Source: Parashewanella spongiae
GTDB lineage: Bacteria; Pseudomonadota; Gammaproteobacteria; Enterobacterales; Shewanellaceae
Length of the DNA: 64,000 nt
NCBI RefSeq assembly: GCF_004358345.1
Contig: NZ_CP037952.1
Location: 2,976,001 to 3,040,000, forward strand
Direction: 5' to 3'
The notes below the pieces were generated by a model that saw nothing but the letters and a program-made list of their open reading frames with translations, made no database searches and was not told where the DNA came from. Shown here piece by piece: positions 131 through 37,182 of the stretch (positions within the stretch are counted from its first letter, which is position 1; the number at the start of each line of letters is the position of its first letter). A program made the position numbers and the translations under genes.

Positions 131-940
131 TCAATCTATTACCACCCAATCATCCGATAGTATTTCAGATACAGTGAATATATATGGTAAATATTGCCCA
201 TTTTTTGAAAAGGCTATCCTTTTAAAACTGAATTTTTGTGCTATGAAATGTGTGGCCACTTGAGGAATAAGTAGAAAAATAGCTTCGGCTTTTTGAATAA
301 ACTGAATATCAACTTCAGGCCTATAATTGGCGTCATGTACTACCTTATGTCGAATTGAAAAGGTCTTATTTACAACTTCATGCCAATCATCAAAAAAGTT
401 ATTCACGACAAATTCACCTGATACTTGCCCACTAATCCCACAAGTTCCAATATCTGTTGTACATATATTCTGTAAAAAGCTACCTCCCCATAAATCGTCG
501 AAGGCTTCTTCTAAATCCTTGACGTTTTGAAAGTTAAAACTTTTACTCAACAATTCTGACAAAGCGATATCACACTCATCAAATGTGTCAGCTGCTGGCT
601 TCATCTTCTTCAATAAACGATTGGTAAGATTTTCATTTTTTGTGTGAATATATACGAAAACATCACGAAAGAATGTCTCCCAACAACTGACAAGAAACAC
701 ATAGTATTGACGATATGCAATTATTAAGAGATCTTTATTTTTCTCATCATTTGACACAAATGAATGCATCAAGCGGCAATTTTCATAGAAATTGATTTGA
801 TGTGAAGAACAAAAGTCATCAATAGACTTTCTACTACTTCGAAGATCGATTAACTCATCAACGAGTTTATCTGTTTTCTTTCTAATCTTTTTCACACTTA
901 GGCCTCTACGTGTGGGCGTTATGTTTGCTTTGCTGGACAA
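131..940 (-). CDS. HEPN-like protein, possible RNase of a defence pair
   Basis: A 254-269 aa protein with no signal peptide or membrane segment, mostly alpha-helical in composition. Near residue 197 it carries RHKVVH followed by DANYRP, which is the R-x4-H signature of HEPN-type ribonucleases, in particular the RiboL-PSP/MAE_28990-like group. The rest is not recognisable. The open frame begins at a TTG (940), but a GTG at 895 preceded by AGAGG at good spacing is the better start. It lies downstream of the TIR gene on the same strand, 38 bp or 83 bp away depending on the start. HEPN domains often act as RNA-cleaving effectors in phage defence and toxin systems; that role here is inferred from one motif and from location in a mobile island. 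Confidence 0.6.
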   Translation of the reverse strand: MSSKANITPTRRGLSVKKIRKKTDKLVDELIDLRSSRKSIDDFCSSHQINFYENCRLMHSFVSNDEKNKDLLIIAYRQYYVFLVSCWETFFRDVFVYIHTKNENLTNRLLKKMKPAADTFDECDIALSELLSKSFNFQNVKDLEEAFDDLWGGSFLQNICTTDIGTCGISGQVSGEFVVNNFFDDWHEVVNKTFSIRHKVVHDANYRPEVDIQFIQKAEAIFLLIPQVATHFIAQKFSFKRIAFSKNGQYLPYIFTVSEILSDDWVVID

Positions 941-978: not shown

Positions 979-1884
979 TTATGCCCCGACTCCAAGAATA
1001 ACTTCAGAAAGCTCATCTGCAATTTCTTGAATACTACTGAGAGATGTGTTTAACGCAACCTTATCAGCAAGTGCAGGACTAAAACTCATCACTTCATCCT
1101 TCGATATTTTATGCCATATAGGTAATATCATTTTGTGGCCATTCATTTCTCTTGCAACCATAGAATCTAGCTCATACTGAGTCCAGTTCTTTGAGCAGAA
1201 CGCCGAAGATAAGATCACTGTGCCGAATTTTGATTTAACTAAGCCATGATCAATGCTTTTTCGTAAGCTATCACCCACTTTCAATGTGAATTCATCGTAC
1301 CAGACTTTAACACCCATATTCTCTAGGGTTTCAGCCAAGGGGCGAACAAATTCATCTTTGTCTTCCGATGCATGCGATATGAATAAGTCGTATTCAGTAT
1401 CAGGCAAAGCCATAGTAGTATTTATAGAGCTATTAACATTCAAGGCCATTGCTTTAGTTACGCTAATTTCAGCCTGTAAATTCCTTTGGTGCGCAAGTTG
1501 CTCTCGTTGCTGCCTTTTTTCTAAATCTAGTAACTTTTTTCTTTCTCTTTCTTCAATCACTGCTTGTTTTTTTCGTTCTTTTTCTTCTTCTTTCAAAAGA
1601 TCCTGTTTTAATTTTAATAGTTTCCCTTCTTTATCTGATAATTTTTTATGCAGATCAGCCTTTTTTATTTGAGCTTGAGTTATTTCGTTATTCTTTCTAT
1701 CTACTTCAGCAGCCTTACTTTTTAACGTAGAGACACTGGTACTTTTTGTAATACTTCGCTTTATCTGATTAATCCGGCTGCCACAATTGGACTCTTTTTT
1801 TGTTTCTAAACTGATTTTATGGTGGAGATCTGCCACCTCTTTTCGAGTTCTTGCTATGGAACTACTTATTGTTGAAATAGACAC
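979..1884 (-). CDS. Coiled-coil TIR-domain protein
   Basis: A 301-aa cytoplasmic protein in two parts. Residues about 1-150 are a charged Lys/Glu/Gln-rich heptad-like region, a long coiled coil. Residues about 163-290 form a TIR domain: it opens with YDLFISHASEDKDEF, continues with VKVWYDEF and VGDSLRKSID, and contains SKNWTQYELD, whose glutamate is at the usual catalytic position of NAD-cleaving bacterial TIRs. Bacterial TIR proteins commonly deplete NAD or make a nucleotide signal during phage infection. The coiled coil suggests oligomerisation or a sensing role. It is followed on the same strand by the HEPN-like gene and sits next to the gamma-mobile-trio operon, which is known to carry defence cargo. 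TIR assignment is firm; the defensive role is inference. Confidence 0.85.
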   Translation of the reverse strand: MSISTISSSIARTRKEVADLHHKISLETKKESNCGSRINQIKRSITKSTSVSTLKSKAAEVDRKNNEITQAQIKKADLHKKLSDKEGKLLKLKQDLLKEEEKERKKQAVIEERERKKLLDLEKRQQREQLAHQRNLQAEISVTKAMALNVNSSINTTMALPDTEYDLFISHASEDKDEFVRPLAETLENMGVKVWYDEFTLKVGDSLRKSIDHGLVKSKFGTVILSSAFCSKNWTQYELDSMVAREMNGHKMILPIWHKISKDEVMSFSPALADKVALNTSLSSIQEIADELSEVILGVGA

Positions 1885-2517: not shown

Positions 2518-4680
2518 TTATGCTTTTAATAGTTCAACGAGATAACTATTGCGCTTGTTTGAGTTGCTTGGTTGATGCGTCACGGATTTAAAATCTGTGG
2601 CACTACCAACTATATGAATTTCAGCTTCAGCCCTTGTAATTGCTGTATATAGCCATGCTCTGTCAACGATTTTACCTTTATCCAGTGCAATAATAATTCT
2701 AGGAAATTGTGAGCCTTGGGCTTTGTGAAGAGTTATTGCATAACCTAACTCTATACAATCAAGTACTGGTTGTGTGATTTCAACTTTATCACCTGTATCC
2801 AAAGTAACCTCACCGTAGCTTTCTCCCGACGATGCTAAGTTTGTTAGTATGCCTAGAGAACCATTTTGAATGCCTTTATCATAGTGATTTTGTGTAAATA
2901 AAATTACATCATTTAATCTTAGGTTTTGAAAGTAACGCTCACCGTGCATTTCAAACTCAAGTCTTTGGCCGCTTGGGTTAACAGTCTCTTGTATAAGTTT
3001 ATTAGTTTCAGAGACAAGTGCTTTGGTTGGTGCCATAACACGGCTATTTCTTGGTGACTGCTTATACAATTCACAACACACTTTGGCTATGTCGCTCTTG
3101 GTCGTTTCGTGAAAGTGGATAGCGCCTGCACTTAATTGCTCAGGCACGATCCCACAGTTAATTAGGTTGGAGTATTCAGGGATGCCAGTTGATCCTTCTT
3201 GTCGCTTAACGATATCTAACTTGGTGCTAGCAATGGCTTTTGACAAAACAATATCCGCAAGTACCTTGCCGCAACCGATGGGCGGAAGCTGATTAGGATC
3301 GCCAGTGATTACAATGCGAACTGAAGGATGAATATGATTAACAATACGATACATAGTTGGTAAATCAATCATACTGGCTTCGTCAATTACCAACAGGTGC
3401 TTTTGTTTGTCTGATCTTGGTTCTATAGGCTCTTCACGCAATAGCTTAGCAATAGTTGAGGTGATAAAACCAATTGACTCATGCAATCGCATAGCCGCTC
3501 TTCCACTCAGCGCTACCGCATGTATTTCAAATCCCATTTGATGGTAGGCTCTAAGTGCGGTTCTAAGCACCGTCGTTTTACCTGTACCCGCACCACCTGT
3601 AATGCAACTTACAGCATTGTCTAAACACGTTGTCACTGCTTCAATTTGTTTCTTCGTTAGCTCGTATGGCAATTCATCAACCGCCGAGCAATATGCAGAA
3701 TTTGCATATTCGTCATAAAAGTTGTTTTGATTAGCGAGGGATTTAAGTCGCTTGGCAACGACATTCTCCATCAGCAGCTGTGCGGTGGGATGGTATGTCC
3801 CAGTTTCAGGGTTAAGAATGTATTGTGCTTTGTTGTGCCCAGCTTTGAATGCCTCGGTAACTAACTCTTTATCCTTGAGAAGTCTGGTTAGATATGGCCT
3901 CAAATTCGCTTTGGTGGTATATGTGTGGCCTTTTTCAATTTCTTTTCGAATAGCAGTTTCGAGTGCCGCACTGAGTCTACGAGGGTCACAATTTGATATT
4001 TTAAACTGTTCTAATTCGAGTTGTTTATCAACATCCGTAAACGACATACCAAAGCCAATCAGTACATACGGATTATATTTTATAGCTACGACTGACTCTT
4101 CCCCATGATGCTTCAATAAACGCTGCTGAACACTTGATGGTATCTTGTGGTCAGTCATCCAGTTACAGTAAGCCAGATTTTTATATTTAGCGTAACCTTC
4201 GTATAAAGTACTGATACAATCTTCACTAAGAACCTCTCTGAGTTTCTGTCTTGATTCTGGCGAGTTTTTTTTAACAGTAGAGTGAAAGTTTCCTCCTAGT
4301 AGCTCCCAGAGTGCTCTTGCCTTGCTTTCACCTATACCCTTGAAGTCACCTTCTCTTGCGATGAAACGAATTAACTGCTCACCTGTTTCAGGTAAGTTAC
4401 ATTGGATGTGCTCAGGAGATTCATAAGTATGCTGTTGCATCACGTAATCACCAGTCTTCCTTTCTTCGACTAATCGGGCACCTTTTACTGTCCAGTGTTG
4501 ACCGAGTGCGAGTGGAATTGGCATTTTATCAGGTTTGACTTTTATGGTTACATAATACTTGCCACTGCTGGTTTTGTATGAGTTTTTTGCCAATGGCACG
4601 CCGCTGAATATAACCATATTAGTAGAACTGTAACGGATACTGGTGACGCGCATTTGTTCTTCATGCAATGCAATATTCAT
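2518..4680 (-). CDS. RecD-like ATP-dependent DNA helicase of the island
   Basis: A 720-aa superfamily 1 helicase of the RecD2/TraA type. An N-terminal OB-like and helix-hairpin region (residues 1-300, including a GIGESKARALWELLG hairpin near 117) precedes the motor. Walker A is GGAGTGKTT near residue 364, Walker B is LLVIDEASMID near 430, motif III is GDPNQLPPIG near 463, and the C-terminal UvrD-like motif ITLHKAQGSQFP is near 652. Its ATG overlaps the stop of the upstream 145-aa gene (ATGA), so the two are translationally coupled. It is shorter than chromosomal RecD2 and is not part of a RecBCD locus. The fixed place behind gmtX suggests a job in island processing or mobility rather than cargo, but this is inference. 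Confidence 0.85.
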   Translation of the reverse strand: MNIALHEEQMRVTSIRYSSTNMVIFSGVPLAKNSYKTSSGKYYVTIKVKPDKMPIPLALGQHWTVKGARLVEERKTGDYVMQQHTYESPEHIQCNLPETGEQLIRFIAREGDFKGIGESKARALWELLGGNFHSTVKKNSPESRQKLREVLSEDCISTLYEGYAKYKNLAYCNWMTDHKIPSSVQQRLLKHHGEESVVAIKYNPYVLIGFGMSFTDVDKQLELEQFKISNCDPRRLSAALETAIRKEIEKGHTYTTKANLRPYLTRLLKDKELVTEAFKAGHNKAQYILNPETGTYHPTAQLLMENVVAKRLKSLANQNNFYDEYANSAYCSAVDELPYELTKKQIEAVTTCLDNAVSCITGGAGTGKTTVLRTALRAYHQMGFEIHAVALSGRAAMRLHESIGFITSTIAKLLREEPIEPRSDKQKHLLVIDEASMIDLPTMYRIVNHIHPSVRIVITGDPNQLPPIGCGKVLADIVLSKAIASTKLDIVKRQEGSTGIPEYSNLINCGIVPEQLSAGAIHFHETTKSDIAKVCCELYKQSPRNSRVMAPTKALVSETNKLIQETVNPSGQRLEFEMHGERYFQNLRLNDVILFTQNHYDKGIQNGSLGILTNLASSGESYGEVTLDTGDKVEITQPVLDCIELGYAITLHKAQGSQFPRIIIALDKGKIVDRAWLYTAITRAEAEIHIVGSATDFKSVTHQPSNSNKRNSYLVELLKA

Positions 4681-5114
4681 CGTGGCATGAACCCCATTTC
4701 AGATAGCGTTTCATTTAACTCGCCAAACCGCTCTAGCTTGCTTTCTAGCTCTTTGATTTTGGCTTTCAGTTCAATATTTTCAGCTTCTAACGCAGATGCT
4801 CGTTTTGAGGTGAGCAATGTTCGATTTGCAGTGTTGTCATATTGCTTTGGCTTACCGACATTCTTTAGGGCAGTCTCAGTCAGTTTCGGCAGTACACCTT
4901 TATCACGTAATGAATCTTCAAGATTGATTAACGCATCTTTCAATGCTGGATTCTGGTTGAGGGCTGATTTACCACAACCTACAGCTTTTGCAACATCCCC
5001 TCGATTTAGTTGCCCTCTAAATACTATTTGCTTGAAATCATCGTCAGTCTGAGTAGCTTTCCATACTTCAAATGATTGCAAGTTTTGCTCTGCTTTTTGT
5101 CGTCCGTTTGTCAT
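4677..5114 (-). CDS. VPA1267-like small coiled-coil protein
   Basis: A 145-aa protein, hydrophilic. Residues about 1-90 include a possible helix-turn-helix-like segment (LNRGDVAKAVGCGKSALNQN) that resembles DNA-binding helices; residues about 105-140 are a heptad coiled coil (AENIELKAKIKELESKLERF). I believe it corresponds to the family called VPA1267, which accompanies gamma-mobile-trio genes in Vibrio; this comes from memory of gene order and not from a search. It is 76 bp downstream of gmtX and overlaps the helicase start by 4 bp, so it is part of the island operon. A DNA-binding or helicase-partner role fits the context but is not shown. Confidence 0.6.
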   Translation of the reverse strand: MTNGRQKAEQNLQSFEVWKATQTDDDFKQIVFRGQLNRGDVAKAVGCGKSALNQNPALKDALINLEDSLRDKGVLPKLTETALKNVGKPKQYDNTANRTLLTSKRASALEAENIELKAKIKELESKLERFGELNETLSEMGFMPR

Positions 5115-5190: not shown

Positions 5191-5871
5191 TTACTTTTTT
5201 AATAGCTTGCTAAGCTCTATGAAATGATGTGAAAACAACGAAACTTGCCCAGTTTCAACGTCAATTGCTTGTCTTGATGGCAATTCCCCTCTAACCTCAA
5301 GTAAGTCACCTCCTATATCCTCGTGTTCTCCCGTTAAAATCGTAATTGCTTCTCTTTGTAATGATGATAGTCCTTGGTTATTTTTAGATACCTCAATTGT
5401 CCCGTTTTCACTTGGTGTTTCATGAATTAGCTGTCTCAGATCAAGCGTGGTTGTTTCTGTATGCTCTTTGTAAAATTTGTCTAATTGAGTGTTTAAAAGA
5501 TTTACTTGCTCCTCAAGTTGAGCTATGTACATTCTGACGTCTAGGGGTAAGTCTCCATTTTTCCCTTTAGCTTTATCGGTAGGATGTTTGGTCTTAGCAC
5601 TCTTGTTTGGTGGGTTGCAGTTAGCATATGCGTTAATGATTTTCTTGTAGAGTCCTTTGGGATCATTGTCTATTGTCTTTCTTGATGGTTTACCACCGTA
5701 GAGCGCAGAAATTCTTTCCGCTACTGATTTTTGAGTCAATAATAGTTTTTTAGCAATTAAGTCTTTACACGCCATTTGTACGTTTCTGATTGATCGAACA
5801 AACCTACTGTCCTTTACTTCATCTAAAATGCTATCAACAATTTTGTCGGCTGATATTGTGTTCGTCATCAT
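5191..5871 (-). CDS. gmtX: Gamma-mobile-trio protein GmtX
   Basis: A 226-aa hydrophilic protein. Residues 1-90 contain a helical segment with LLTQKSVAERISALYGGKPSRKTIDND, resembling a helix-turn-helix that recognises DNA; residues about 115-140 are a short coiled coil; the C-terminal part is not recognisable. Its start codon overlaps the GmtZ stop (AATGATG, with GGAGAG as ribosome site), so it is coupled to gmtZ. Order, strand, size and overlap match the third member of the gamma-mobile-trio (VPA1268 in Vibrio parahaemolyticus). The trio defines a class of gammaproteobacterial islands that carry defence and offence genes. The biochemical role of GmtX is not known to me. Confidence 0.75.
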   Translation of the reverse strand: MMTNTISADKIVDSILDEVKDSRFVRSIRNVQMACKDLIAKKLLLTQKSVAERISALYGGKPSRKTIDNDPKGLYKKIINAYANCNPPNKSAKTKHPTDKAKGKNGDLPLDVRMYIAQLEEQVNLLNTQLDKFYKEHTETTTLDLRQLIHETPSENGTIEVSKNNQGLSSLQREAITILTGEHEDIGGDLLEVRGELPSRQAIDVETGQVSLFSHHFIELSKLLKK

Positions 5872-8800
5872 TTCTCTCCAATAGATATGATACTATTTTT
5901 ATCAAACTCACTAAGTGCTAATCCAATTCTTTCAGAAGTATCTAACTGCAATTTATCTAAAAGTAATTGAGGGTTTTCATATTCTTCATTTGTGAATGTA
6001 CGACCTATAATTTCAGTAACCTGTTGTATCTTGTACAGTATCGCAGCACGCTTCACATCATCATCAGGTACATACAGCAACGCATTGGGCGACTTAGTTA
6101 TGTCTGCTAGCTTGTTGTATAGTTTTTGTAATTCTCTCATTGGGATAGTTTCTTCGTCACCATCAATACCAAGGATCATACCTTGTGTCGCAATCTCCAT
6201 GTGTTTTTCGAGGTCATTATCAAGAATAAGGTTTTTTGTATCTTCAACCCGCACTTCTGTGCTATCGCAGAGGGAAGGTAAAAGGTTTTTGAGAGAATTT
6301 TTTATTTGGGCTTTTTCTAATGAGGCATTAAGAAGATGTTCTCTTCTTTCTCGTTCTTGAATGAGCTTGGCAAGTTCGAGGTTTGTATCATCAATCCTAA
6401 AATTGATCTGATGCGAAGCGATCTGAGCGCATTCAGAATCTTTACTATTATATCTTTCTTTTGACTGTTGGATTAATCTTGCCCGCTTATCTATAAATTC
6501 TGATATCTTCGAGCCAACAAGGTTATAATAATAAATCTGTTCTAATAAAAACTCTGGCCCTGACTTGAAAAAACGACACAACCCACATCTTTGATATTCA
6601 TTGGCCTCTATAACTTGAGATTCCCCATGCTTAGTTATTTTTATTGAAACCCTTCCTTCATCACAGTTAAAACCAAAGCATACCCCCCCGTTCAAGATTA
6701 TTGGCATACCATGATGGAAATTCTTCGGATGATGTACCTCGTCTATGTCCTCAAAGTCATTAGCTACATCAAAAATAGCAATTAAATCATTACCTTCTTT
6801 ATCTAAAAATCGCTTCGTGTTTAAATTGGCCATGCCGTTTTGAGACTTAGCCACGAACAACTGTCTTCTATATTCTTCAGATAGTAGCTTTTTGTAATAA
6901 ATCGTCATAACTGAAGTAGCATGTCCCACTAGAGCTTGAACTGTATCTACAGACAACCCCTGTTCTAAAAGAGAGGTTATGCCGTACACTCGTAGGGTAT
7001 GGACATCGAAAATACGATTACCGTTGCTATCGTATGCGACATTTCGATTTTTGTACTCGGGGTAATATTCCTTGTATCGTTTATCAGCAATGTCAAGCAG
7101 ATTGTAAAATACCTTTCGAACGGCATCTGAGGATGGCGGTAGATAAAGGTTTTCTGTGTCACTGTTTTTATCAACCTTGACCTTTTTAGATACTTTGCTA
7201 AACCTAATGTCTCGGAAGAGCGGTACATGTTTAGGTAAATGATCCCATTCACTTATATTGTATTTTTTGGCATCTTCATCAACACTGCTGACAGGCGTTG
7301 TGAACATCGGTGATGCCGCATAGACACGGTTAAACTTCATCTGCTCTTGAATAATTTCATAAACCTTATCAACGTTAGGTATGCCAGTTTGCGCAGGCCA
7401 ATTTAGCTCATAACCATGTGTACCGTTTTTTCGGGCAGATGCGAGGGTTGTTTTGTTTGTGTTAATAAACAACAAAATGGATTCAATATCATTATCGTTG
7501 CTTGCTCTTAATACTCCCGTAGCCCCGAATTTCTCGTGATGACTCTTACCGTCCTTGTATCGAAAGTTCTTTAGATGTTTATATGGGTTGGGCACATACT
7601 TCAATTGTTCATAGTCGAATAGCATCATATCGAGAAGCCCTTCATCTAACCAGCGCACTTGATGAGATCGCAACGGCACAAGAAGTAATAAATGGATGAT
7701 TCTAGCTATATTTTTGAACTCGACTATTTCTGTTTCGCCAGTTTCGTTGTTAACAACAGAAATCCGCTGAGTGCTTTTTGAGTTTTCATAGTCATTTTCT
7801 GTAGCAACTTCAAGAAGGACTTCATAAAAATTTGATGGCATAGCACGTCGTGAAGTTTGTTTTGGATTATCATTGCGCATAGGAAAAATATCTTTTACGA
7901 CGGGCATGGGACATTGTATATGGTGTTTTAACTCCATAGAGAGTTTGTTGAAACACCAAGTTAAGCACTGCAAGATTGTCCCCCAAGTGCTTCTTTGTGA
8001 TACGGGGCTTTTCTGAATAGATTGTAAATAAGTGTGGAATGTTGGTAGTGTTTCCACTTCAAGAGTATCAAAAAAAAGCGTAGGTCTGAGAGAAGATAAT
8101 TCGTTTACTGATGCACCGTTCTCGTTAATTGAAATCAAATAATCAAGAAATATATTTATGCGATCTGAAATTGCAGCGTTGGTGCTTAGATACAACCAAT
8201 CACTTATTATGATGCGAATTCTTTCATCAATCTTTCCTTTTGCCCACACAATGTCAGGGTTTCCTCGGCTAGTATTGTTGTTAGTTAGGACTTTTAAAGT
8301 GTTAACAGAGATTTTCTCTTTAGGGAAATCTACGTTGAGTGTTTCAAATACCTTTGCAAAGGTTTTGTATTTTAGCCCAGTAGACGTATTGTATTCTGTT
8401 GAATTGCGAATATTCTCAAATATATTTAAAAAAAAGTCATGGGGGATTTCGGCCATTGATTGGAATGAAAACCGATAAAGCTTTCTTAATGCAGACTTAT
8501 CACCTTTAGGGAGTGCGCTACCTTCAGGGCTTTCTAGGTACTTCTCTATTTCATAGTTTAGCGGATGCTGAGCGTTGAGCATTTCTAGGGGGAAATGCTG
8601 TAATGTTTTTATTTTGAATGACCAAGGAAAATGACATATCATTCGATTTGAATTACAGAGGTTAACTATTGTGTATAGACTCTTTGCCTGCGACCAAACC
8701 ATGTATATATAGTCTAAGAATTGATTCCGCTTACCCTCATAACCAATATATTTTTGTTCAAAAAGCTCTCGCAATGTGTGCTCTTTCAAAAAACGCTCGA

Positions 8801-9398
8801 TACGTTTATCAGTGTATTTATGCGCAACCCTTTCCAAAAACAAATAAAATGGGGATGATATAATTGTATCGATATTGGTTTCTCGTTTGGCTGCTAATGT
8901 ACCAAAATTTTCCTGAGGGGAGAATACAGTGCCAACTGCTATATGATGCAGCCACTTCACAGCTGCCAATGGCGGCACGTTTTTGAATGTGGCATCGATA
9001 TTGATTAGAAAACTAGAAAAAAATGCGCCACCACAAGAAATGGAAAGCTCGTCGTCCCAAATGCCACCGTTATTAAGTAGATGCTCTCTTATTTCCTTCT
9101 TTGACGATATACCAACTTGTTTTAATTTATTCTCTGTTAGTGGAAATAAAAACTTTGTTGCACTACTTTCGCTATTGTGCGAAAGTCTTCCCGCATGCTC
9201 ATCTAGCGACAAATCATTCATGGTGGTGTAAAACGAATCAACTTTCGACAACGCTTCAATGTCAATAAATACAGTATCACGAGAATCGTTATATACAGCC
9301 TTCGTTCTTGTATCTTGTTGTAATACGGACATATCTGTACCTAGTTTCATATCAGATACATCGTTCCACTTTTGTAGCTTTTCACTTAAATCCGTCAC
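5868..9398 (-). CDS. gmtZ: Gamma-mobile-trio integrase GmtZ (VPA1269-like)
   Basis: A 1176-aa protein starting with GTG behind a GAGGGG ribosome site, 1 bp after the GmtY stop. The centre holds a degenerate tyrosine-recombinase core: PLRSHQVRW near residue 576 (first Arg), HTLRVYG near 803 (His-x-x-Arg) and LVGHATSVMTIYYKK near 825 (His and candidate nucleophile Tyr). It is followed by a cysteine cluster, GVCFGFNCDEG near 905 and CGLCRFF near 940, that looks zinc-binding. The long N-terminal 500 residues are not recognisable. This layout matches the VPA1269-type integrase that is the hallmark of gamma-mobile-trio islands. It presumably works with GmtY in excision and integration. Confidence 0.82.
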   Translation of the reverse strand: MTDLSEKLQKWNDVSDMKLGTDMSVLQQDTRTKAVYNDSRDTVFIDIEALSKVDSFYTTMNDLSLDEHAGRLSHNSESSATKFLFPLTENKLKQVGISSKKEIREHLLNNGGIWDDELSISCGGAFFSSFLINIDATFKNVPPLAAVKWLHHIAVGTVFSPQENFGTLAAKRETNIDTIISSPFYLFLERVAHKYTDKRIERFLKEHTLRELFEQKYIGYEGKRNQFLDYIYMVWSQAKSLYTIVNLCNSNRMICHFPWSFKIKTLQHFPLEMLNAQHPLNYEIEKYLESPEGSALPKGDKSALRKLYRFSFQSMAEIPHDFFLNIFENIRNSTEYNTSTGLKYKTFAKVFETLNVDFPKEKISVNTLKVLTNNNTSRGNPDIVWAKGKIDERIRIIISDWLYLSTNAAISDRINIFLDYLISINENGASVNELSSLRPTLFFDTLEVETLPTFHTYLQSIQKSPVSQRSTWGTILQCLTWCFNKLSMELKHHIQCPMPVVKDIFPMRNDNPKQTSRRAMPSNFYEVLLEVATENDYENSKSTQRISVVNNETGETEIVEFKNIARIIHLLLLVPLRSHQVRWLDEGLLDMMLFDYEQLKYVPNPYKHLKNFRYKDGKSHHEKFGATGVLRASNDNDIESILLFINTNKTTLASARKNGTHGYELNWPAQTGIPNVDKVYEIIQEQMKFNRVYAASPMFTTPVSSVDEDAKKYNISEWDHLPKHVPLFRDIRFSKVSKKVKVDKNSDTENLYLPPSSDAVRKVFYNLLDIADKRYKEYYPEYKNRNVAYDSNGNRIFDVHTLRVYGITSLLEQGLSVDTVQALVGHATSVMTIYYKKLLSEEYRRQLFVAKSQNGMANLNTKRFLDKEGNDLIAIFDVANDFEDIDEVHHPKNFHHGMPIILNGGVCFGFNCDEGRVSIKITKHGESQVIEANEYQRCGLCRFFKSGPEFLLEQIYYYNLVGSKISEFIDKRARLIQQSKERYNSKDSECAQIASHQINFRIDDTNLELAKLIQERERREHLLNASLEKAQIKNSLKNLLPSLCDSTEVRVEDTKNLILDNDLEKHMEIATQGMILGIDGDEETIPMRELQKLYNKLADITKSPNALLYVPDDDVKRAAILYKIQQVTEIIGRTFTNEEYENPQLLLDKLQLDTSERIGLALSEFDKNSIISIGEK

Positions 9399-9399
9399 T

Positions 9400-10827
9400 T
9401 TAACACCACCCCTCGTTAAGTTTATGTTTTAGTTCTTCCCAGCTTAGATCTCTACCATCACCCTCACCGTGTAGTTGTAGTATTTCAGAACGTATTTTTT
9501 GCTTCGATTTTTTATAATATTTATTAGTTGAATCCACTGATGCATGACGAAGAATGTCTTTAGTTTGATCTACTGACATATTGAGGGCGTTAGCACAAAA
9601 TTCTCCGCAAAAATGCCGCAGCGAGTGTGGCCCTATCTCAAATGTAAGTATCTTTTTTGATTTATATCGAAATGTGTTCGTGTAATTGCTAAGTGTGAGA
9701 GGCATGCCCGAACTTTGAGTTATTAATAAGTATGGGTGATTACGCCTCGCTTGAGCTTGTAGCTTATGTACTAGTCTCGAAAATTCCCTATGGGCAGCGT
9801 CACTTGACCAGTTCAACGTATATCCGAATTTAGGATTGTAATCGACATTAGGGAAAGTCATCCCTTTCCATTCCAAATTGTACTTATTTTCTAGATCAAC
9901 TCTAGGCCTCATGTGTTCAAGAAATTCGATGTCAGTATCACCTAAACCCACATGTGATTTAGCTTGCACTGCAAACTTGTGGAGCAAATCTTTTCTACGG
10001 ATAGCCTGTTTTGATAGGGGGTAATATGTATTTCCGTTAACGGGGTGACTTACTATTACCTCATAGCCTCCTCTATTTTTAGGCACGATATCTGTGATTA
10101 GAATATGAAGCACTTCACTAGCTCTTAAGCCAGTAAAGGCTTGAAGTAGCATAGCTGCTTTAAAATTTATATTTGTTTGACTATCGATGAACTCAAAAAT
10201 GGAATTATGTGGGAATGCTTTATAGTTATGACCATTCAGCGAAAAGTTATCTTGTTGAAACTCTTGTCGTTGTCGAGTAACCCATTTTGAACCGCTGTTG
10301 TCAGTTTTAGATTTACCATCGTCTAAGTGTGCTAACAGGCTAAATTTTGATTTTTTTTGTTCTTGCGTATAAGTCTTTGTTAATGAGCCGATATAATCAC
10401 GGTCATTTACAACATTTAGATACCTAGCGCACCATTCGTGAAATTTTTCAAAGCACTTGATCTCGTTGCTTGCAGTATCATATTTAACGGGTTGATAAAA
10501 TAAACCAGTCTCATCGCTCTTGGATGTTATTGTTCCATGCAATCTCGCAGAAAAATATGATAGAAAAAGCCTTGTAGGTTCTTCTTGCCACTCCGTGTGT
10601 TTTTGTTTTTGCGTCAAATAAAAATGATAGATTCTTGCAACTACAATGATGATCCGTCTTAATGCTCGATTACTACCACCCCCAATTTCAATTTGCATCT
10701 TACAAAAAGCAATTAGCGATGGAGAAACCGAGCCATCACAAAAATAGCAGATCGGAAACTTTTTATTGGGAAACTGTTTGGTTTTATAATATTCGATTCT
10801 ATATATCGATGTGCGTTTAAGTTTCAT
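9400..10827 (-). CDS. gmtY: Gamma-mobile-trio recombinase GmtY (tyrosine recombinase)
   Basis: Tyrosine site-specific recombinase of about 475 aa. Seen in order: FTGLRASEV (catalytic Arg, mid-protein), IGPHSLRHFCGEF (His-x-x-Arg) and LRHASVDSTNKYYKK (His and the nucleophile Tyr) near the C terminus. The open frame extends to 10896, but the extra 23 residues are unlike the family, so I take ATG 10827 (MKLKRTSIYR). It is the first gene of the leftward operon and stands right at the island edge, about 130 bp from where nrdB homology resumes, which is where an island integrase is usually found. Identity as GmtY rests on recombinase motifs plus the adjacent gmtZ and gmtX. Confidence 0.82.
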   Translation of the reverse strand: MKLKRTSIYRIEYYKTKQFPNKKFPICYFCDGSVSPSLIAFCKMQIEIGGGSNRALRRIIIVVARIYHFYLTQKQKHTEWQEEPTRLFLSYFSARLHGTITSKSDETGLFYQPVKYDTASNEIKCFEKFHEWCARYLNVVNDRDYIGSLTKTYTQEQKKSKFSLLAHLDDGKSKTDNSGSKWVTRQRQEFQQDNFSLNGHNYKAFPHNSIFEFIDSQTNINFKAAMLLQAFTGLRASEVLHILITDIVPKNRGGYEVIVSHPVNGNTYYPLSKQAIRRKDLLHKFAVQAKSHVGLGDTDIEFLEHMRPRVDLENKYNLEWKGMTFPNVDYNPKFGYTLNWSSDAAHREFSRLVHKLQAQARRNHPYLLITQSSGMPLTLSNYTNTFRYKSKKILTFEIGPHSLRHFCGEFCANALNMSVDQTKDILRHASVDSTNKYYKKSKQKIRSEILQLHGEGDGRDLSWEELKHKLNEGWC

Positions 10828-10931
10828 CTCTAATTTCAACTTACGGGATAAGGGCGTATTGTAATAATGCAAGAGAAATATAGTTAAAGTCAACATATTC
10901 TCAGAAAGTTAAAGATATAAGGGATAAAGCA

Positions 10932-10943
10932 CCCATATATGGG
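10932..10943. promoter_or_regulatory. Palindrome between gmtY and the nrdB junction
   Basis: CCCATATATGGG is a perfect 12-bp palindrome; GGGATA occurs just left of it and again overlapping its right side. It lies between the gmtY start and the point where nrdB homology begins, so it may be a recombinase arm site or the operator/promoter of the trio operon. Which one cannot be told from sequence. Confidence 0.35.
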
Positions 10944-10958
10944 ATATGTTAATAAAGA

Positions 10959-11390
10959 TTAATTGCGCGAGATGAGGCCTTACACCTGAACAGCACACAG
11001 CATATCTTAAACATTATGCAATCAGGCAAAGATGATCCTGAAATGGCAGAAATTGCCATTGAATGCCGTCAAGACGCTTACGACTTATTCTATAAAGCTG
11101 CTGAGCAAGAAAAAGATTGGGCTGAATATCTGTTTAAAGATGGCTCTATGATAGGTATGAACGAAAATATCTTATGTCAATACGTTGAATACATCACCAA
11201 TCAACGTATGAAAGCCGTTGGTTTAGAACTGCCATATCAAGAAAAATCTAACCCATTACCATGGATGAAAAACTGGCTTGAAAGCGATGCAGTTCAAGTG
11301 GCACCACAAGAAGTAGAAGTATCTTCATATCTTGTTGGCCAAATTGACTCTTCCATTGATGAGAGTGAGTTCGAAGACTTTGATCTTTAA
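10959..11390 (+). pseudogene. nrdB: 3' fragment of nrdB (ribonucleotide reductase small subunit)
   Basis: About 143 codons matching the C-terminal part of class Ia ribonucleotide reductase beta subunit, full length about 376 aa. In-frame homology can be followed leftward from the ATG at 11016 through [10 protein letters not shown] to position 10959, with a stop codon at 10953. The fragment keeps the last two metal ligands (Glu and His in RDEALHL) and the C-terminal tail that docks on NrdA, but lacks the earlier ligands and the radical tyrosine. It therefore cannot be an active subunit alone. yfaE overlaps its end as in an intact nrdAB-yfaE operon. The break coincides with the gamma-mobile-trio island edge. 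The 5' part, or an intact gene, should lie beyond the left of the window. Confidence 0.88.
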
Positions 11391-11679
11391 GAAACCCCCT
11401 ATCGTCAGATTAAAAGGGCAGCCTGTATTATTATTTGATAAGCAGCCTACTTTGCTTGATGCATTAGAACAAAAAGAAGTCGAAATTTTTTCAGAATGTC
11501 GAAGTGGTTTTTGTGGTTCCTGTAAGACTAAAATGATATCGGGAAGTGTCACTTACGTCCAAGAACCATTAGCTGCATTAGAAGAAGACGAATGTTTACC
11601 TTGCTGTTGTGTTCCAGTCACAGATTTAGATCTAGAACTACCACTGCACCAACACGAAGCACTCGCCATTGAGCAGTAA
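11359..11679 (+). CDS. yfaE: YfaE-type 2Fe-2S ferredoxin for NrdB cofactor maintenance
   Basis: A 106-aa plant-type [2Fe-2S] ferredoxin. The ligands are visible in [11 protein letters not shown] (Cys-x4-Cys-x2-Cys) and a later Cys in LPCCCVP. In Enterobacteria YfaE feeds electrons for assembly and repair of the NrdB diferric-tyrosyl cofactor and follows nrdB. Here ATG 11359 lies inside the end of the nrdB frame (32-bp overlap), the usual coupled arrangement; the open frame reaches back to 11332 but that start would lie deeper inside nrdB. Because the island has removed the nrdB promoter side, expression of yfaE must now start within the island edge or the fragment. Confidence 0.85.
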
Positions 11680-11744: not shown

Positions 11745-13755
11745 GTAGAGTAGGCTACTGGCTTCGCTATCGCTTATCCAGCAGCCCCTCTTCGATTCCG
11801 TGCATGAGGTTTTCCCTCACACGGCTCTGTTGTTACACTTCTCTCAGCCCCTTCACTTTGCTTATCATCTTGTCGTGGGTAAATACTCAAGACCAGCTTG
11901 GCGTAATTTTTCGTAAGCACCTCGTGATAGATACTTGCTTCGACGTTGACTTAAGCGACGATGCCAGCGATAGAACCGGTTTACTACAAATCCATTTATT
12001 CTGAAAAATACACCTCTGGGATAACCTATCCCAGCAAAATAGTGTTTCCATCCCCTCAGAACTTGATTAACTTTATTTATCAGTACGCCAAGTGTATTTG
12101 AGGTTCGATGCTTCACTATGTCTCTGAGTTTATTTTTCAGCTTTGTTTGGCTCTTCTTAGACGCCTGTATCTTAATGTAACTGGTGCCTTTGATGAGGCC
12201 TGTGATCCGTTGAAAGTTAAAACCGAGGAAATCAAACTCATTCATCAGCTTTCCCATATCCACACAGTGGGTTTTACTTTGATTTAGCTTCAGACCTTCA
12301 TAACTTAATTGCTGTGTTATTCAGTCCAGTTGCTCTTGTGTGTAGGTTTGCTTATGAAGTACAACAAAATCATCTGCATAGGTAACGATTTTACACGGTG
12401 TTTTTTCGTGTATTTTCAAACAGAAATCGTTGAGATAGATGTTAGCCAGTAGTGGAGAGATAACTCCGCCTTGTGGAGTGCCACATCGGCTTGCTTCTAT
12501 TCGCCATTTCCCGTTGACCGTCTCTATGCTGATGGGCGCTTTGATAAAGCTTTTCAGTAAACTCAGAAAGCTGCTGTCGCTTATTCGCCTTTCTATTTTT
12601 GTCATCAACTTAGCGTGCGGAATGGTATCGAAATAGGCGCTCAAGTCAGCATCGAGTACGTGCTGATAGCCTTGTTTTAGGCTCATTTCAATGACTTTTA
12701 CCGCTTGCTGGGCGCTTCGACATGGACGGTAGCCATAACTGTGTTCATGTAAATGAGGTTCGTAGACGGGTTGCATCACTATTGTCATCGCCATTTGCAC
12801 AATTCTGTCACTGATTATCGGGATCCCAAGTTTCCGCGTTTTGCCGTTGTCTTTGAGTATTTCTACTCATTTGACTGGGCTAGGTCGATAGTTTTTCTGT
12901 TGTAATTGAGTTTGAATTTCTTTTAACAGCGCAACGACTTTCTTTTGCTGCTCTAGATAACTGAATGTGATGCCATCAATTCCTGCTCCGCCTTTATTGG
13001 CTTTGCATCGTCGATAGGCTTCTTCGAGTATATCTAGGCGACTGAGTTTATCGTACAAGCTGTAAAATCGAAGCTCCGAGTTAAGCTTTGAGCGTAAGTA
13101 AAGTTTTCGCTGTAATATTCTGATATTTACTGGAGTGTTAGCCATATGGCAATTTCACCTCAAAAGTTACGTTAAAAAACGGGTGTAACACTGAGCCCCT
13201 TCCCTGATGTAAAGTTATGTTGTCTTCACGGTTAACGGTACTATGGGCTCATCCGACTGCCTGAGCGCCCTATCTGAAATTTCGGTTTACCTTATATTCG
13301 GATAGTGGAAGTCACTACCTTCCAACACTCAGGCTCTCCCACGTTCACTTTATTTCCTTCAATACATGCCACTTCATATTACGCCGGAAGATCAAACAGA
13401 TGCATTTACCAGTTGCTTCTCTGTTTGTGTCAGGGTTCGTCAACTAGGAAAGACTCCCCATCTTCATTTTTTGATTTACGACGCTTAACTGAATTCGCTT
13501 GATGCTGCGGCCTACATTGCATCTCAACCTTTATTCAAGGCCTTTGTCACAGGGCTTCATGTCATAGCGGTTACCCATTATGCATGCCCGTCAGATTTCG
13601 GGATGAACTGGTAATTATCCCGTCAGGTACGTTTCAACCTGATGGACTTATTATAAATAATAACGTTGCTGTCTCTGGTTTATGGCCATGTAATCGCTTG
13701 GCTGCGTATACGTTGAGACAAATCCCGCAACAGAATAAAGCGCTTCGTGGCGCTC
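11745..13755 (-). mobile_element. Group II intron, copy 1 (RT inactivated)
   Basis: Read leftward it begins GAGCGCC (13755) and ends CTACTCTAC (11745), 2011 bp, exactly the length of copy 2 at 45022-47032. The ribozyme 5' region occupies 13755-13146, the reverse transcriptase 13145-11865, and a recognisable domain V stem (GAGCCGTG ... CACGG) 11828-11795. It is about 99% identical to copy 2 by eye. Its upstream exon is the end of a MITE C element (CTAGG junction). The RNA may still splice if the RT is supplied by copy 2. Confidence 0.85.
11865..13145 (-). pseudogene. ltrA: Group II intron reverse transcriptase/maturase, nonsense mutated
   Basis: Frame equivalent to the intact 426-aa protein at 45632-46912 but with two in-frame stops. 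The Arg codon after SPVK has become TGA near 12868, and the Trp codon after EQLD has become TGA near 12320, both single-base C-to-T/G-to-A type changes. The YADD catalytic box and the maturase domain are still present. It also differs from copy 2 by several missense changes (for example Tyr/Cys, Thr-Lys-Ile/Ala-Lys-Val). The remaining pieces are open frames of 92, 159 and 132 codons, unlikely to function. Confidence 0.9.
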
Positions 13756-14382: not shown

Positions 14383-16040
14383 AAAAGAAATGGGTGTAGA
14401 TCTTTTAGATCGACGAAAAGCATGAAAAGATCATTCATTATCAATTGGATGGGTTTAATAAATGGTGCGAAAGGAGCAATTTTATAGTACTTATCAGTTT
14501 CCACACACAACAAGTATATAAAAAGGCTCCTTTCATGAAACTAGCATACTCAAACTCACTCGAATTTTCATTCTTTTCTGAAGCCAAATTGAAATTTGAG
14601 CGTATTATTTCGCACCTCGAAGACAAACAAGTTAAGCAAGAGAGCCATGGAGAAGTTGAAGCCTATATCGATACCGAAGGAACTGAGTTGTTGCGGTGTT
14701 TATTGCAGGGTTTCTTAGATATCAAAACCGCTGAAGAGCCCCGTCAGCAAGTTTGTTCCAACCGTGACATTGCATTGAATTATTTGAAAAATAACTGCAA
14801 ACGAAACTTAGAAAGTTTATTTGGTACCGTAACGATGCATCGAAAAGGTTACAGTCAACGTCGGTGTGATAGCGTGTTTCCAATGGATGGTGAGCTGAAT
14901 CTTTCGAAAGATAAATACTCTGATGGTGTACGCCTAAGACTCGCTACAGAAGCAGTCAAAGGCTCATATGATGATGCAGTAAGCTCAATAGATACCACCA
15001 CAGGTGCGCACGTGCCCAAGCGACAAGCAAGGCAAATTGTGCAGGATATTGCACAAGATTTTGATGGTTTTTATCTCCAGCAGAGATACCTTAAGCCAGA
15101 AAATACATCTGATTTACTGGTATTGACTATGGATGGAAAAGGCATCGTTATGCAACCTAATAGCTTGAGAGAGGGCACGCAAAAAGCAGCGAAACAACAG
15201 AAGCTCAAAGGACGCCTAAGTGCTGGAGAAAAAAAAGACCGCAAACGAATGGCAGAAGTTGCAGCGGTATACACCACCAAGCCTTTGCATCGTACCCCAG
15301 AATCAATCATGTCTAGAAACGATAATTCAAATGTTCGTCCATTACGTGTGCCACCAAGAAATAAACGTGTGTGGGCAAGCGTAGAAAGAAGCGCTGCGAC
15401 TGTGATTGAAGAAGCATTTTTAGAAGCTCTGGAACGAGACCCTACTCAAAGCCGTCAGTGGGTTGTACTCGTTGATGGTCATCCTCATCAGCTAAAACAA
15501 ATTTATCGGGTGATGAAGAAACTCAACATCAATGCAACGGTGGTCATGGATTTCATCCATGTGCTTGAATATCTCTGGAAAGCGGCGTGGTGCTTATTTG
15601 AAAAAGATGATCCAGAAGTCGAAGATTGGATAGAAAATCGAGCGACTGAAATCTTACGAGGTAATGCGTCACAAGTAGCAAAAGGCCTTGGGATCAGTGC
15701 AACAAAACGGAAATTAAAACAACGAGAAGGCATTAATAAGTGCATCGGTTATCTATTGAAAAATAAATCAAGATTAGAATACGGTAAAGCGTTAGAGCAA
15801 GGTTTCCCAATTGCTAGCGGTGTCATTGAGGGAGCTTGTCGTCATCTGATTAATGATAGGTTGGATATCACTGGAGCGAGATGGAGCCTTGAAGGTGCAG
15901 AAGCTATATTAAAACTTAGGTCGTTAAGATCGAGTGGTGATATTGAAAAGTATTGGGAGTATCACAAAAAGCAATCCAAACAGAGGTTATACAGATGTGG
16001 ATAACTTCGTCGTTTTAAAAGACACACACCCAAAAGAAAT
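14383..16040 (+). mobile_element. ISKra4-type insertion sequence, intact copy with target duplication
   Basis: The element runs 14392-16031 (1640 bp). Its ends are inverted repeats of about 26 bp starting GGGTGTAGATCTTTTA on the left and GGGTGTGTGTCTTTTA on the right. AAAAGAAAT is repeated directly on both sides (14383-14391 and 16032-16040), a clean 9-bp target duplication that argues for recent insertion. One transposase gene fills it. Confidence 0.9.
14535..16004 (+). CDS. ISKra4-family transposase
   Basis: A 489-aa transposase from ATG 14535 (the frame extends upstream to 14445, but MKLAYSNS preceded by AAGG fits best and matches the start of the second copy). Middle and C-terminal parts carry the family-like blocks LVLTMDGKG (acidic residue), WVVLVDGHPHQL (acidic residue), VMDFIHVLEYLWKA and the late GVIEGACRHLINDRLD block with a glutamate, consistent with a DDE-type enzyme. 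A degraded copy with over 90% identical protein lies at 56587-57922 on the other strand. The family name is from recognition of the protein, not from a search. Confidence 0.87.
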   Translation: MKLAYSNSLEFSFFSEAKLKFERIISHLEDKQVKQESHGEVEAYIDTEGTELLRCLLQGFLDIKTAEEPRQQVCSNRDIALNYLKNNCKRNLESLFGTVTMHRKGYSQRRCDSVFPMDGELNLSKDKYSDGVRLRLATEAVKGSYDDAVSSIDTTTGAHVPKRQARQIVQDIAQDFDGFYLQQRYLKPENTSDLLVLTMDGKGIVMQPNSLREGTQKAAKQQKLKGRLSAGEKKDRKRMAEVAAVYTTKPLHRTPESIMSRNDNSNVRPLRVPPRNKRVWASVERSAATVIEEAFLEALERDPTQSRQWVVLVDGHPHQLKQIYRVMKKLNINATVVMDFIHVLEYLWKAAWCLFEKDDPEVEDWIENRATEILRGNASQVAKGLGISATKRKLKQREGINKCIGYLLKNKSRLEYGKALEQGFPIASGVIEGACRHLINDRLDITGARWSLEGAEAILKLRSLRSSGDIEKYWEYHKKQSKQRLYRCG

Positions 16041-36462: not shown

Positions 36463-36705
36463 TATTACTTCCACGTTTACTGGGACTACGGCCGTTTCAA
36501 GCAGTTGGTGTACGGTTCGTGTCGTTTATCATCGTAAAATTCTATTGAGCTTAAAGCCCAGTTTACTTCATATCAATAGCTATAAAGTGCTAATAAATAA
36601 AAAGTAACAAAATTCACCTATTCGAGCGACCTAACATTTTGTCATTACTGGCCGCAAGCAGCCGCCTATTATAAAGCTGATGCTTACAATTGCGACCCTG
36701 ATTTA

Positions 36706-37182
36706 TTAAATTTTGTGCATTTGTTGTGCAAATAGGCATTTTTCGAAGCTTTCAACGATTGTTTCAAGTCCATTTTGGTCTTGTTCATCGAAGCGAGAGA
36801 AGTTTGGACTATCAATATCAAGCACTGCAATAACTTTATCGTTTTGTATGACTGGAATTACAATTTCCGAATTGCTTGCGGAATCACAAGCAATATGTCC
36901 TTTAAATTGATGTACATCGGCAATACGCTGAATTTTATTTTCGGCAGCCGCTGTACCACAAACACCACGTCCCATTGGAATACGTACACAGGCAACTTTA
37001 CCTTGAAAGGGCCCAAGTACCAGTTCATCATTCTTGGCGAGGTAAAAGCCTACCCAATTTATTTCACTAAGGTGTTCGTTTAATAATGCTGATAAATTAG
37101 CCATAGCAGCAATTAGATCAGTTTCGCCTTCAAACAACGCCAGAACTTGGCGGTTTAAAGTATCGTACAATTCAGACTTCAT
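36706..37182 (-). CDS. msrC: Free methionine-(R)-sulfoxide reductase (GAF type)
   Basis: A 158-aa single GAF-domain enzyme, homologous to YebR/MsrC, which reduces free methionine-R-sulfoxide. The diagnostic pieces are WVGFYL, LGPFQGKVACVRIPMGRGVCGTAA (two of the catalytic cysteines), HIACDSASNSEIVIP (third Cys) and VLDIDSP. I chose ATG 37182 (MKSELYDT), which has AAGGAA at proper spacing; the open frame extends 15 codons upstream without a ribosome site. It sits between yebG and proQ in the same direction, part of a conserved neighbourhood. Confidence 0.92.
   Translation of the reverse strand: MKSELYDTLNRQVLALFEGETDLIAAMANLSALLNEHLSEINWVGFYLAKNDELVLGPFQGKVACVRIPMGRGVCGTAAAENKIQRIADVHQFKGHIACDSASNSEIVIPVIQNDKVIAVLDIDSPNFSRFDEQDQNGLETIVESFEKCLFAQQMHKI

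Follow-up and report, generated by a model that had tools for sequence, protein, structure and literature searches.

How does a bacterium remain viable when an apparently mobile island sits inside nrdB, the gene for the R2 subunit of class Ia ribonucleotide reductase? The question is raised by a 64,000-nucleotide stretch of the Parashewanella spongiae genome (hereafter the window), which spans bases 2976001-3040000 of a single-contig complete genome of 5,468,749 bp (G000). Read leftward, nrdB homology ends at window position 10956, and a recombinase open reading frame (ORF) on the opposite strand starts nearby, at 10896 or, alternatively, at an internal methionine near 10833 (by eye), much as an initial annotation of the window alone had described. 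Here we argue that a trio-recombinase island very probably docks in nrdB, an essential gene, and replaces it with a complete copy carried at the island's other end.

What remains of the native operon to the right of the junction also agrees with the initial annotation. The native 3' part comprises 144 codons from 10956, running to 11390; codons 235-376 of this displaced part (10962..11390, + strand) match positions 235-376 of the NCBIfam class Ia R2 profile. The displaced native yfaE ferredoxin gene (11359..11679, + strand, start codon assumed) overlaps the end of nrdB. Both frames are open, and no start signal was recognised for the nrdB part itself. A genome search with this C-terminal part returned a further match, 68% identical, 28 kb leftward. 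Extension to the left, which the initial annotation had proposed, recovered both the 5' part of nrdB, on the same contig but beyond the window, 28.9 kb left of the junction, and a repeat of the junction sequence. Native nrdA lies at genome positions 2955007-2957295 and native nrdB starts at 2957385, its reading frame undamaged through codon 234. The last two codons of this 5' piece, 233 and 234, read AGATTA (genome 2958081-2958086) and give way to island sequence; the same 6 bp form codons 233-234 at the right end (window 10956..10961, + strand), delimiting an island of 28,875 bp measured core to core. Joining the flanks across one AGATTA restores an uninterrupted 376-aa NrdB frame. Over the 359 residues compared, its identity is 91.4% and 92.2% with two copies from the same genus and 71.9% with the island copy; over all 376 residues, identity with the first same-genus copy is 90.7%. 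DNA alignments with four same-genus loci cross the junction uninterrupted at 75-78% identity. The suggestion that the coding sequence of a reductase subunit serves as the attachment site is supported, and such targeting is backed by another island at these codons, described below. AGATTA itself occurs at codons 233-234 in none of 45 relatives tallied (29 from the same family and 16 from a second family, f6), and the pair is not conserved.

Just behind the native stump and in line with nrdA lies the island's own nrdB, foreign and complete at 376 aa (locus L003, 3230-4360), overlapped by an island yfaE (to L003 4613) whose match to the YfaE model is above cut-off. The frame of the stump runs on for 39 open codons into the island and ends at a TAA 23 nt ahead of the replacement start. 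The island NrdB matches the class Ia R2 profile over positions 1-376 of 376 (E 4e-203), aligns gap-free with E. coli NrdB over 376 residues, and retains the residues corresponding to the E. coli iron ligands, the radical tyrosine Y122, and Y356. The native 5' piece is without the residues matching E238 and H241 and without the tail, all of which sit in the 3' half (E. coli numbering for these residues, as for Y122 and Y356). In the genome, PF02867 detects a single large-subunit gene, the native nrdA, and PF00268 detects the island nrdB together with the two native pieces, the island copy being the sole complete R2. The initial annotation had offered three possibilities: the far island end rebuilds the gene, a second reductase covers the loss, or the split is tolerated. 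Rebuilding by fusion is the pattern of icd-type phage sites; fusion with a short island-borne 3' end was rejected here, the island copy being complete with its own start. A compensating second reductase was rejected as well, the PF02867 and PF00268 searches, which do not extend to class III, returning only the nrdA and nrdB genes described. What the far end does hold is a whole second nrdB plus yfaE. Since one NrdA and one complete R2 were found in the genome, and the native 5' piece is devoid of key residues, the cell most likely depends for aerobic deoxynucleoside triphosphate (dNTP) synthesis on host NrdA paired with island NrdB.

The replacement is of foreign origin with a host-like end. 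In a 61-row NrdB tree (locus L160, from which no ORF was parsed, was left out), the island protein clusters with family f6 on a long branch (support 100/98), and the native protein falls with its own family. Family f6 is probably that of Alteromonas: plasmid pAMCP48-600, from this genus, encodes two NrdBs, and both fall in the f6 clade. Among viral contigs, identity to the island NrdB reaches at most 56% in the best 80 of 169 matches. The final 11 residues of the island NrdB are nevertheless those of the host genus, as found in the native copy and in 4/4 genus loci; elsewhere this tail occurs in one of 25 other family loci (the best-scoring ones fetched rather than a random draw) and in none of 12 f6 loci (5 of 17 were left out, having parsed lengths other than 1131 nt), and it is likewise absent from the 16 f6 rows L144-L159. 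Along 13 intervals of nrdB DNA, the last shows the biggest genus lead (identity 0.79 to the genus vs 0.62 to f6); the genus is ahead by 0.02-0.06 in four others, and f6 is ahead or tied in the remainder. Native and replacement NrdB are 84.8% identical in their C-terminal 33 residues and 70.3% in the part preceding these, with a nonsynonymous divergence (dN) of 0.27 between the two genes (synonymous divergence, dS, was not computable). In E. coli, the C-terminal tail of R2 docks it on R1. The host-like tail may therefore reflect adaptation, or a small recombination event, preserving the fit between the foreign R2 and host NrdA, and a general constraint on the R2 tail could add to its host likeness.

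At the right end, behind a terminal arm (10937..10955, - strand) that is an imperfect inverted repeat of the left arm, lie three genes on the - strand: a GmtY-like tyrosine recombinase of 498 aa (9400..10896; NF040693, E 3.1e-34), a GmtZ-like large integrase of 1176 aa (5868..9398; NF047926, E 4.7e-37) and a GmtX-like protein of 226 aa (5191..5871; NF040692, E 2.6e-5). Their bit scores are below the curated cut-offs, at 119/340, 127/600 and 23.9/40, respectively. The gamma-mobile-trio (GMT) label of the initial annotation therefore appears right in kind, all three models being matched, while the scores mark the island as a divergent member. Further along the same strand are a VPA1267-family protein (4677..5114; NF040697, E 3.2e-56, above cut-off) and a RecD2-like helicase of 720 aa (2518..4680; TIGR01448, E 1.8e-106, below cut-off).

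Codons 233-234 are also the point at which a second island cuts nrdB in G1323, a complete genome of 4,305,442 bp from family f6. At the left end of this island, nrdA and the first 234 codons of native nrdB are followed by an open run of 39 codons, a gap of 36 nt, a complete nrdB and a yfaE that scores above the NCBIfam cut-off; its far end holds GmtX-, GmtZ- and GmtY-like genes, beyond which native nrdB resumes at codon 235, with native yfaE after it. AAACTT, at codons 233-234, is repeated at both ends (2217603-2217608 and 2275456-2275461), and the 57,853-bp island has the orientation of the window island. The trio proteins of the two islands are 27.6% (GmtX-like), 33.8% (GmtZ-like) and 35.0% (GmtY-like) identical, and the R, HxLR, H and Y stretches of the GmtY-like recombinases align. 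The NCBIfam models used for the window match GmtY and GmtZ of G1323, again below cut-off, and none matched its GmtX. Because the two islands share the codons and differ in the 6 bp, the choice of site probably depends on the flanking codons and not on the spacer. Native and replacement NrdB of G1323 are 89.9% identical (dN 0.07; dS ~3, saturated), with 100% identity over the last 33 residues and 88.9% before. An additional tyrosine recombinase of 288 aa lies between GmtY and the nrdB junction in this island (L232 14274-15140).

Two further islands occupy a different codon pair, 353-354 in 376-aa numbering. In plasmid pAMCP48-600 of Alteromonas mediterranea (NZ_CP018025.1), nrdB is severed at EI codons ahead of an SSYLVGQ-type tail, and the order is nrdA, cut nrdB, complete nrdB and yfaE, both cassette genes scoring above cut-off. 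Restriction-modification and other cargo, an integrase, a RecD2-like ATPase and small proteins follow, and at the far end of this ~32.65-kb island a 745-aa protein without a family match and a tyrosine recombinase precede the native nrdB tail with its stop. A second Alteromonas record, NZ_CP018028.1, gave search matches equal to those of pAMCP48-600 (at the search level only). G468 has the same cut, a like appended tail (EINVH.LKTP) and a full nrdB with yfaE; the two island proteins compared between G468 and pAMCP48-600 are 40.5% (integrase) and 41.2% (large Z-like protein) identical. Recombinase and RecD2-like genes lie at the far end of both islands. In G468 this right end is broken by an ORF pair that has a second copy 15 kb away, presumably an IS66-like element, and the native nrdB tail was not found there. 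The Gmt models did not recognise the recombinase sets of either island, and among the window proteins only RecD2 found a blastp match in them (28%). At each end of the pAMCP48-600 island, ~100 bp are tandemly duplicated (L192, about 4233-4430 and 36690-36890).

The arms beside the 6-bp spacer are imperfect inverted repeats. Those of the window island match at 8/12 and 10/19 positions, scores reached by 0.4% and 1.2% of 20,000 random sequence pairs drawn from the island; in G1323 the values are 8/12 (0.5% by chance) and 12/19 (0.1%). The 6-bp copies are identical within G000 and within G1323; in pAMCP48-600 a single silent substitution separates GAAATA, next to the replacement, from GAAATT, next to the recombinase. 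In the model proposed for SE elements, to which we return below, the distal 6-bp copy derives from the donor (as outlined in PMC9345347 and PMC10214605). The mismatch in pAMCP48-600 would fit an earlier stay in another nrdB, a suggestion drawn from one case.

To judge how widespread such islands are, NrdB was searched for in 152 genomes of the same family, 394 of the order, 260 of family f21 and 262 of f6 (overlapping sets). More than one match at E 1e-20 was found, besides G000, in G008, G045, G398, G407, G468, G935, G942, G986, G1155, G1233 and G1323; the first five and G1323 were read, and G935, G942, G986, G1155 and G1233 were left out. Only two of the six genomes read, G468 and G1323, contain nrdB islands, which are therefore rare in the sampled genomes. 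G008 was rejected as a case of a second nrdAB operon, G045 as a frameshift giving two abutting frames, and G398 as a second nrdB without an adjoining nrdA (by eye). In the draft genome G407 (C319 12541-13584), nrdB has an in-frame gap of ~33 codons, query residues 223-255, spanning the codon 233-234 site. Loci L129, L190 and L191 showed no match to the window Y, Z, X, VPA1267 and RecD2 proteins, a search that did not include the pAMCP48-600 set.

Taken together, these features suggest how the island may have become part of the host. A divergent island of the gamma-mobile-trio type would use nrdB codons 233-234 as its attachment site, with its recombinases presumably carrying out insertion. Insertion after codon 234 would sever the E238/H241-matching ligands and the NrdA-docking tail, and native R2 would be lost; at the same time, the island end bearing a complete nrdB and then yfaE would land behind nrdA and the stump. 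With 23 nt between the stop of the stump frame and the start of the replacement, transcription from the original nrdA promoter probably yields a single message covering nrdA, stump, replacement nrdB and yfaE. Host NrdA would then partner the island R2, and selection against dead hosts would retain the cassette in the island. We infer mobility, expression and rescue from the arrangement of the sequence, and the replacement is predicted to be functional and essential.

Several observations weigh against this interpretation or narrow it. The trio proteins fall short of the curated GMT cut-offs, only two islands are known in all at codons 233-234, and the arms of pAMCP48-600 are weak (5/12, 17.5% by chance; 9/19, 3.5%). 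No close GmtY relative besides the window's own was found in the 152 family genomes, and among the 394 order genomes there are 3 others at just 25-26% identity, leaving G1323 as the sole closer relative. Essentiality is assumed for aerobic growth only, the anaerobic class III reductase lying outside our searches. Past the cut, the nrdB frame is open for 39 codons in G000 and G1323 and for 20 in pAMCP48-600 and G468; it is the longest of the three frames in 3/4 islands, G468 being the exception (28 codons in another frame vs 20), and 14% of random island starts in G000 and 9% in G1323 stay open for at least 39 codons, so that its length is only modestly unusual. Translational coupling of stump and replacement is plausible where the cut lies at codons 233-234 but doubtful in the other two islands, and it is not general, because the gap from stop to start is short in G000 and G1323 (23 and 36 nt) but 88 nt in G468 and 112 nt in pAMCP48-600. 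Finally, docking in nrdB is not a general GMT trait, because distant GMT relatives adjoin recA, nfo and phoR (labels by eye).

This last point would favour a chance landing in nrdB, with nrdB-yfaE as ordinary horizontally acquired cargo and no evolved pairing of target and cargo. The rescue copies are also of differing origin, 71.5% to 89.9% identical to their native counterparts, and nrdB has been reported as an accessory gene of an integrative and conjugative element in Acidithiobacillus caldus (PMC3826726). We nevertheless consider chance unlikely: four islands with two recombinase sets all place a complete nrdB and then yfaE directly behind the cut gene in one orientation, and two of them, from separate families within a single order, sit at the same codon pair. 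It is very unlikely that the native halves form a working split R2 beside a redundant xenolog. Both halves are open and undecayed, but they lie 29 kb apart, the 5' half stops after residue 234, the E238/H241 equivalents and the docking tail fall in a 3' half without a recognised start signal, and the complete copy holds the operon position. Assembly error at 10956, or an old genomic duplication without mobility, is the most remote of the explanations considered. The junctions are known from assembled sequence alone; even so, the genome is a single contig, the 6-bp repeats are exact, a recombinase trio stands at the end, the joined frame is intact, a second genome has the matching layout, and no intact native operon or other complete R2 was found elsewhere in G000. 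Docking in nrdB with replacement of the gene is thus the reading that we prefer for the window. A broader proposal seems to us evenly poised: that trio-recombinase islands of marine gammaproteobacteria repeatedly dock in nrdB, that convergence brought two or more dissimilar recombinase sets to two of its codon pairs, and that these islands became indispensable as the only aerobic R2 source, with a tail fitting host NrdA.

In 369 class genomes, the GmtY family yielded 7 matches including the window's own, 2 of them above cut-off; genome contigs gave a single match, at 37% over 75 residues, and none of 5 candidates in viral contigs was GmtY. The window VPA1267 and RecD2 proteins (2518-5114) share 76.6% and 75.7% identity with their counterparts in G073 (C3 426597-429196), which belong to a GMT adjoining a gene read as nfo. 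The G073 GmtY and GmtZ are 23% and 27% identical to the window's over the aligned parts, and window GmtX finds no match there. Because VPA1267 and RecD2 are ~76% identical while GmtY and GmtZ are only 23-27% identical, recombinase genes have evidently been exchanged against a shared VPA1267-RecD2 module, a possible route to a new target. Two other GMTs (L124 ~1255-1315, past a recA-like gene; L126 ~1270-1330, past an nfo-like gene) have near-identical ends and different flanking genes (by eye), and in Vibrio vulnificus FORC_036 (L127 4700-6037) a distant GmtY-like recombinase and a VPA1269-family gene stand beside apparent tRNA and 5S rRNA genes (by eye).

As for cargo, the left-end nrdB-yfaE is followed by type I restriction-modification genes and then by a HEPN-domain protein (131..940, - strand; PF18735, E 1.3e-7) and a TIR-domain protein (979..1884, - strand; PADLOC PDC-S66). 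Fragments of a RecD2-like C-terminus lie on the + strand of the left island arm (L003 4746-5099 and 6846-7052; 52% and 62% identical to window RecD2), which suggests repeated cargo or island accretion. Outside the island, a hairpin and T-run follow native yfaE (by eye). Just to the right, 11865-13145 holds broken-frame reverse-transcriptase/maturase-like pieces resembling a decayed group II intron, and a 519-aa transposase-like ORF (14445-16004) lies between native yfaE and a pyrD-like gene (both by eye).

How does this island compare with known systems? GMT islands, which Mahata et al. are said to have described in 2024, reportedly carry GmtY, GmtZ and GmtX in order at one end, a VPA1267-family protein and defence-type cargo. 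The window island resembles them in a GmtY/GmtZ/GmtX-like gene order at one end, the VPA1267-family protein and its type I restriction-modification, TIR and HEPN genes, and differs in recombinases that score below the curated cut-offs and in bringing a complete substitute for the gene it targets. Elements of the SE-6283 type insert into bcp and bring a bcp homolog with them (as presented in PMC9345347 and PMC10214605). Like the window island, SE elements have two tyrosine recombinases, one of them very large, and a 6-bp spacer between imperfect inverted repeats; unlike it, they have a four-gene core (intA-tfp-intB-srap) that includes a catalytically dead Tfp, target a peroxiredoxin gene, and have a mechanism tested experimentally, whereas the window island is known from sequence alone (SE features as given in the main account of PMC10214605). 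In gene order, the window island departs from that core, with GmtZ directly after GmtY and then one small protein, and its GmtY-like and GmtZ-like proteins both have catalytic residues. The main text of PMC10214605 contains no occurrence of nrdB. If the island moved by copy-out without an empty site, as SEs do, insertion would amount to a one-way takeover in which an essential chromosomal gene is permanently replaced.

A functional parallel is found in Pseudomonas putida KT2440, where a 65-kb island splits tmk and the PP_1964 kinase is the essential replacement (PMC10653934, in its account of this island). That island, too, splits an essential gene of dNTP synthesis and supplies the activity, as shown by genome engineering, and two tyrosine-type recombinase genes are among its conserved flanking genes; unlike the island NrdB, its rescuing kinase is isofunctional and phage-T4-like rather than a full copy of tmk (same source). 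ICEAcaSM.3 of Acidithiobacillus caldus carries an nrdB conserved with the chromosomal copy, but as accessory cargo of a conjugative element, with no insertion into nrdB described in the relevant part of PMC3826726. GInts recur at ssb and alter gene ends or promoters; they share a multi-gene tyrosine recombinase operon with the window island, as does Tn554 (per PMC10214605), and are set apart by a description that does not include whole-gene replacement (PMC5385486, in the sections on these elements). No nrdB-targeting island is described in the literature searched, a scope that excludes supplements and the original GMT paper. Islands that rescue the target they split are thus already known, and so, separately, is nrdB carried as mobile cargo. 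As far as the cited sources go, nrdB as a target, replacement of a whole gene together with its downstream gene, two codon pairs of one gene hit by dissimilar recombinase sets, and a host-like docking tail are new. Mobile elements usually avoid essential genes or exploit their 3' ends. The window island cuts the metal-site region of the reductase and compensates by supplying an entire substitute nrdB along with the remainder of the operon, offering a testable case of an essential enzyme swapped by a mobile element and of a foreign subunit compatible with its host partner. An island that could not be lost might, for that reason, accumulate defence cargo. Together with bcp in SE-6283 and tmk in P. 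putida, the case suggests a general strategy whose mark, a split core gene beside a complete second copy, can be sought in genomes.

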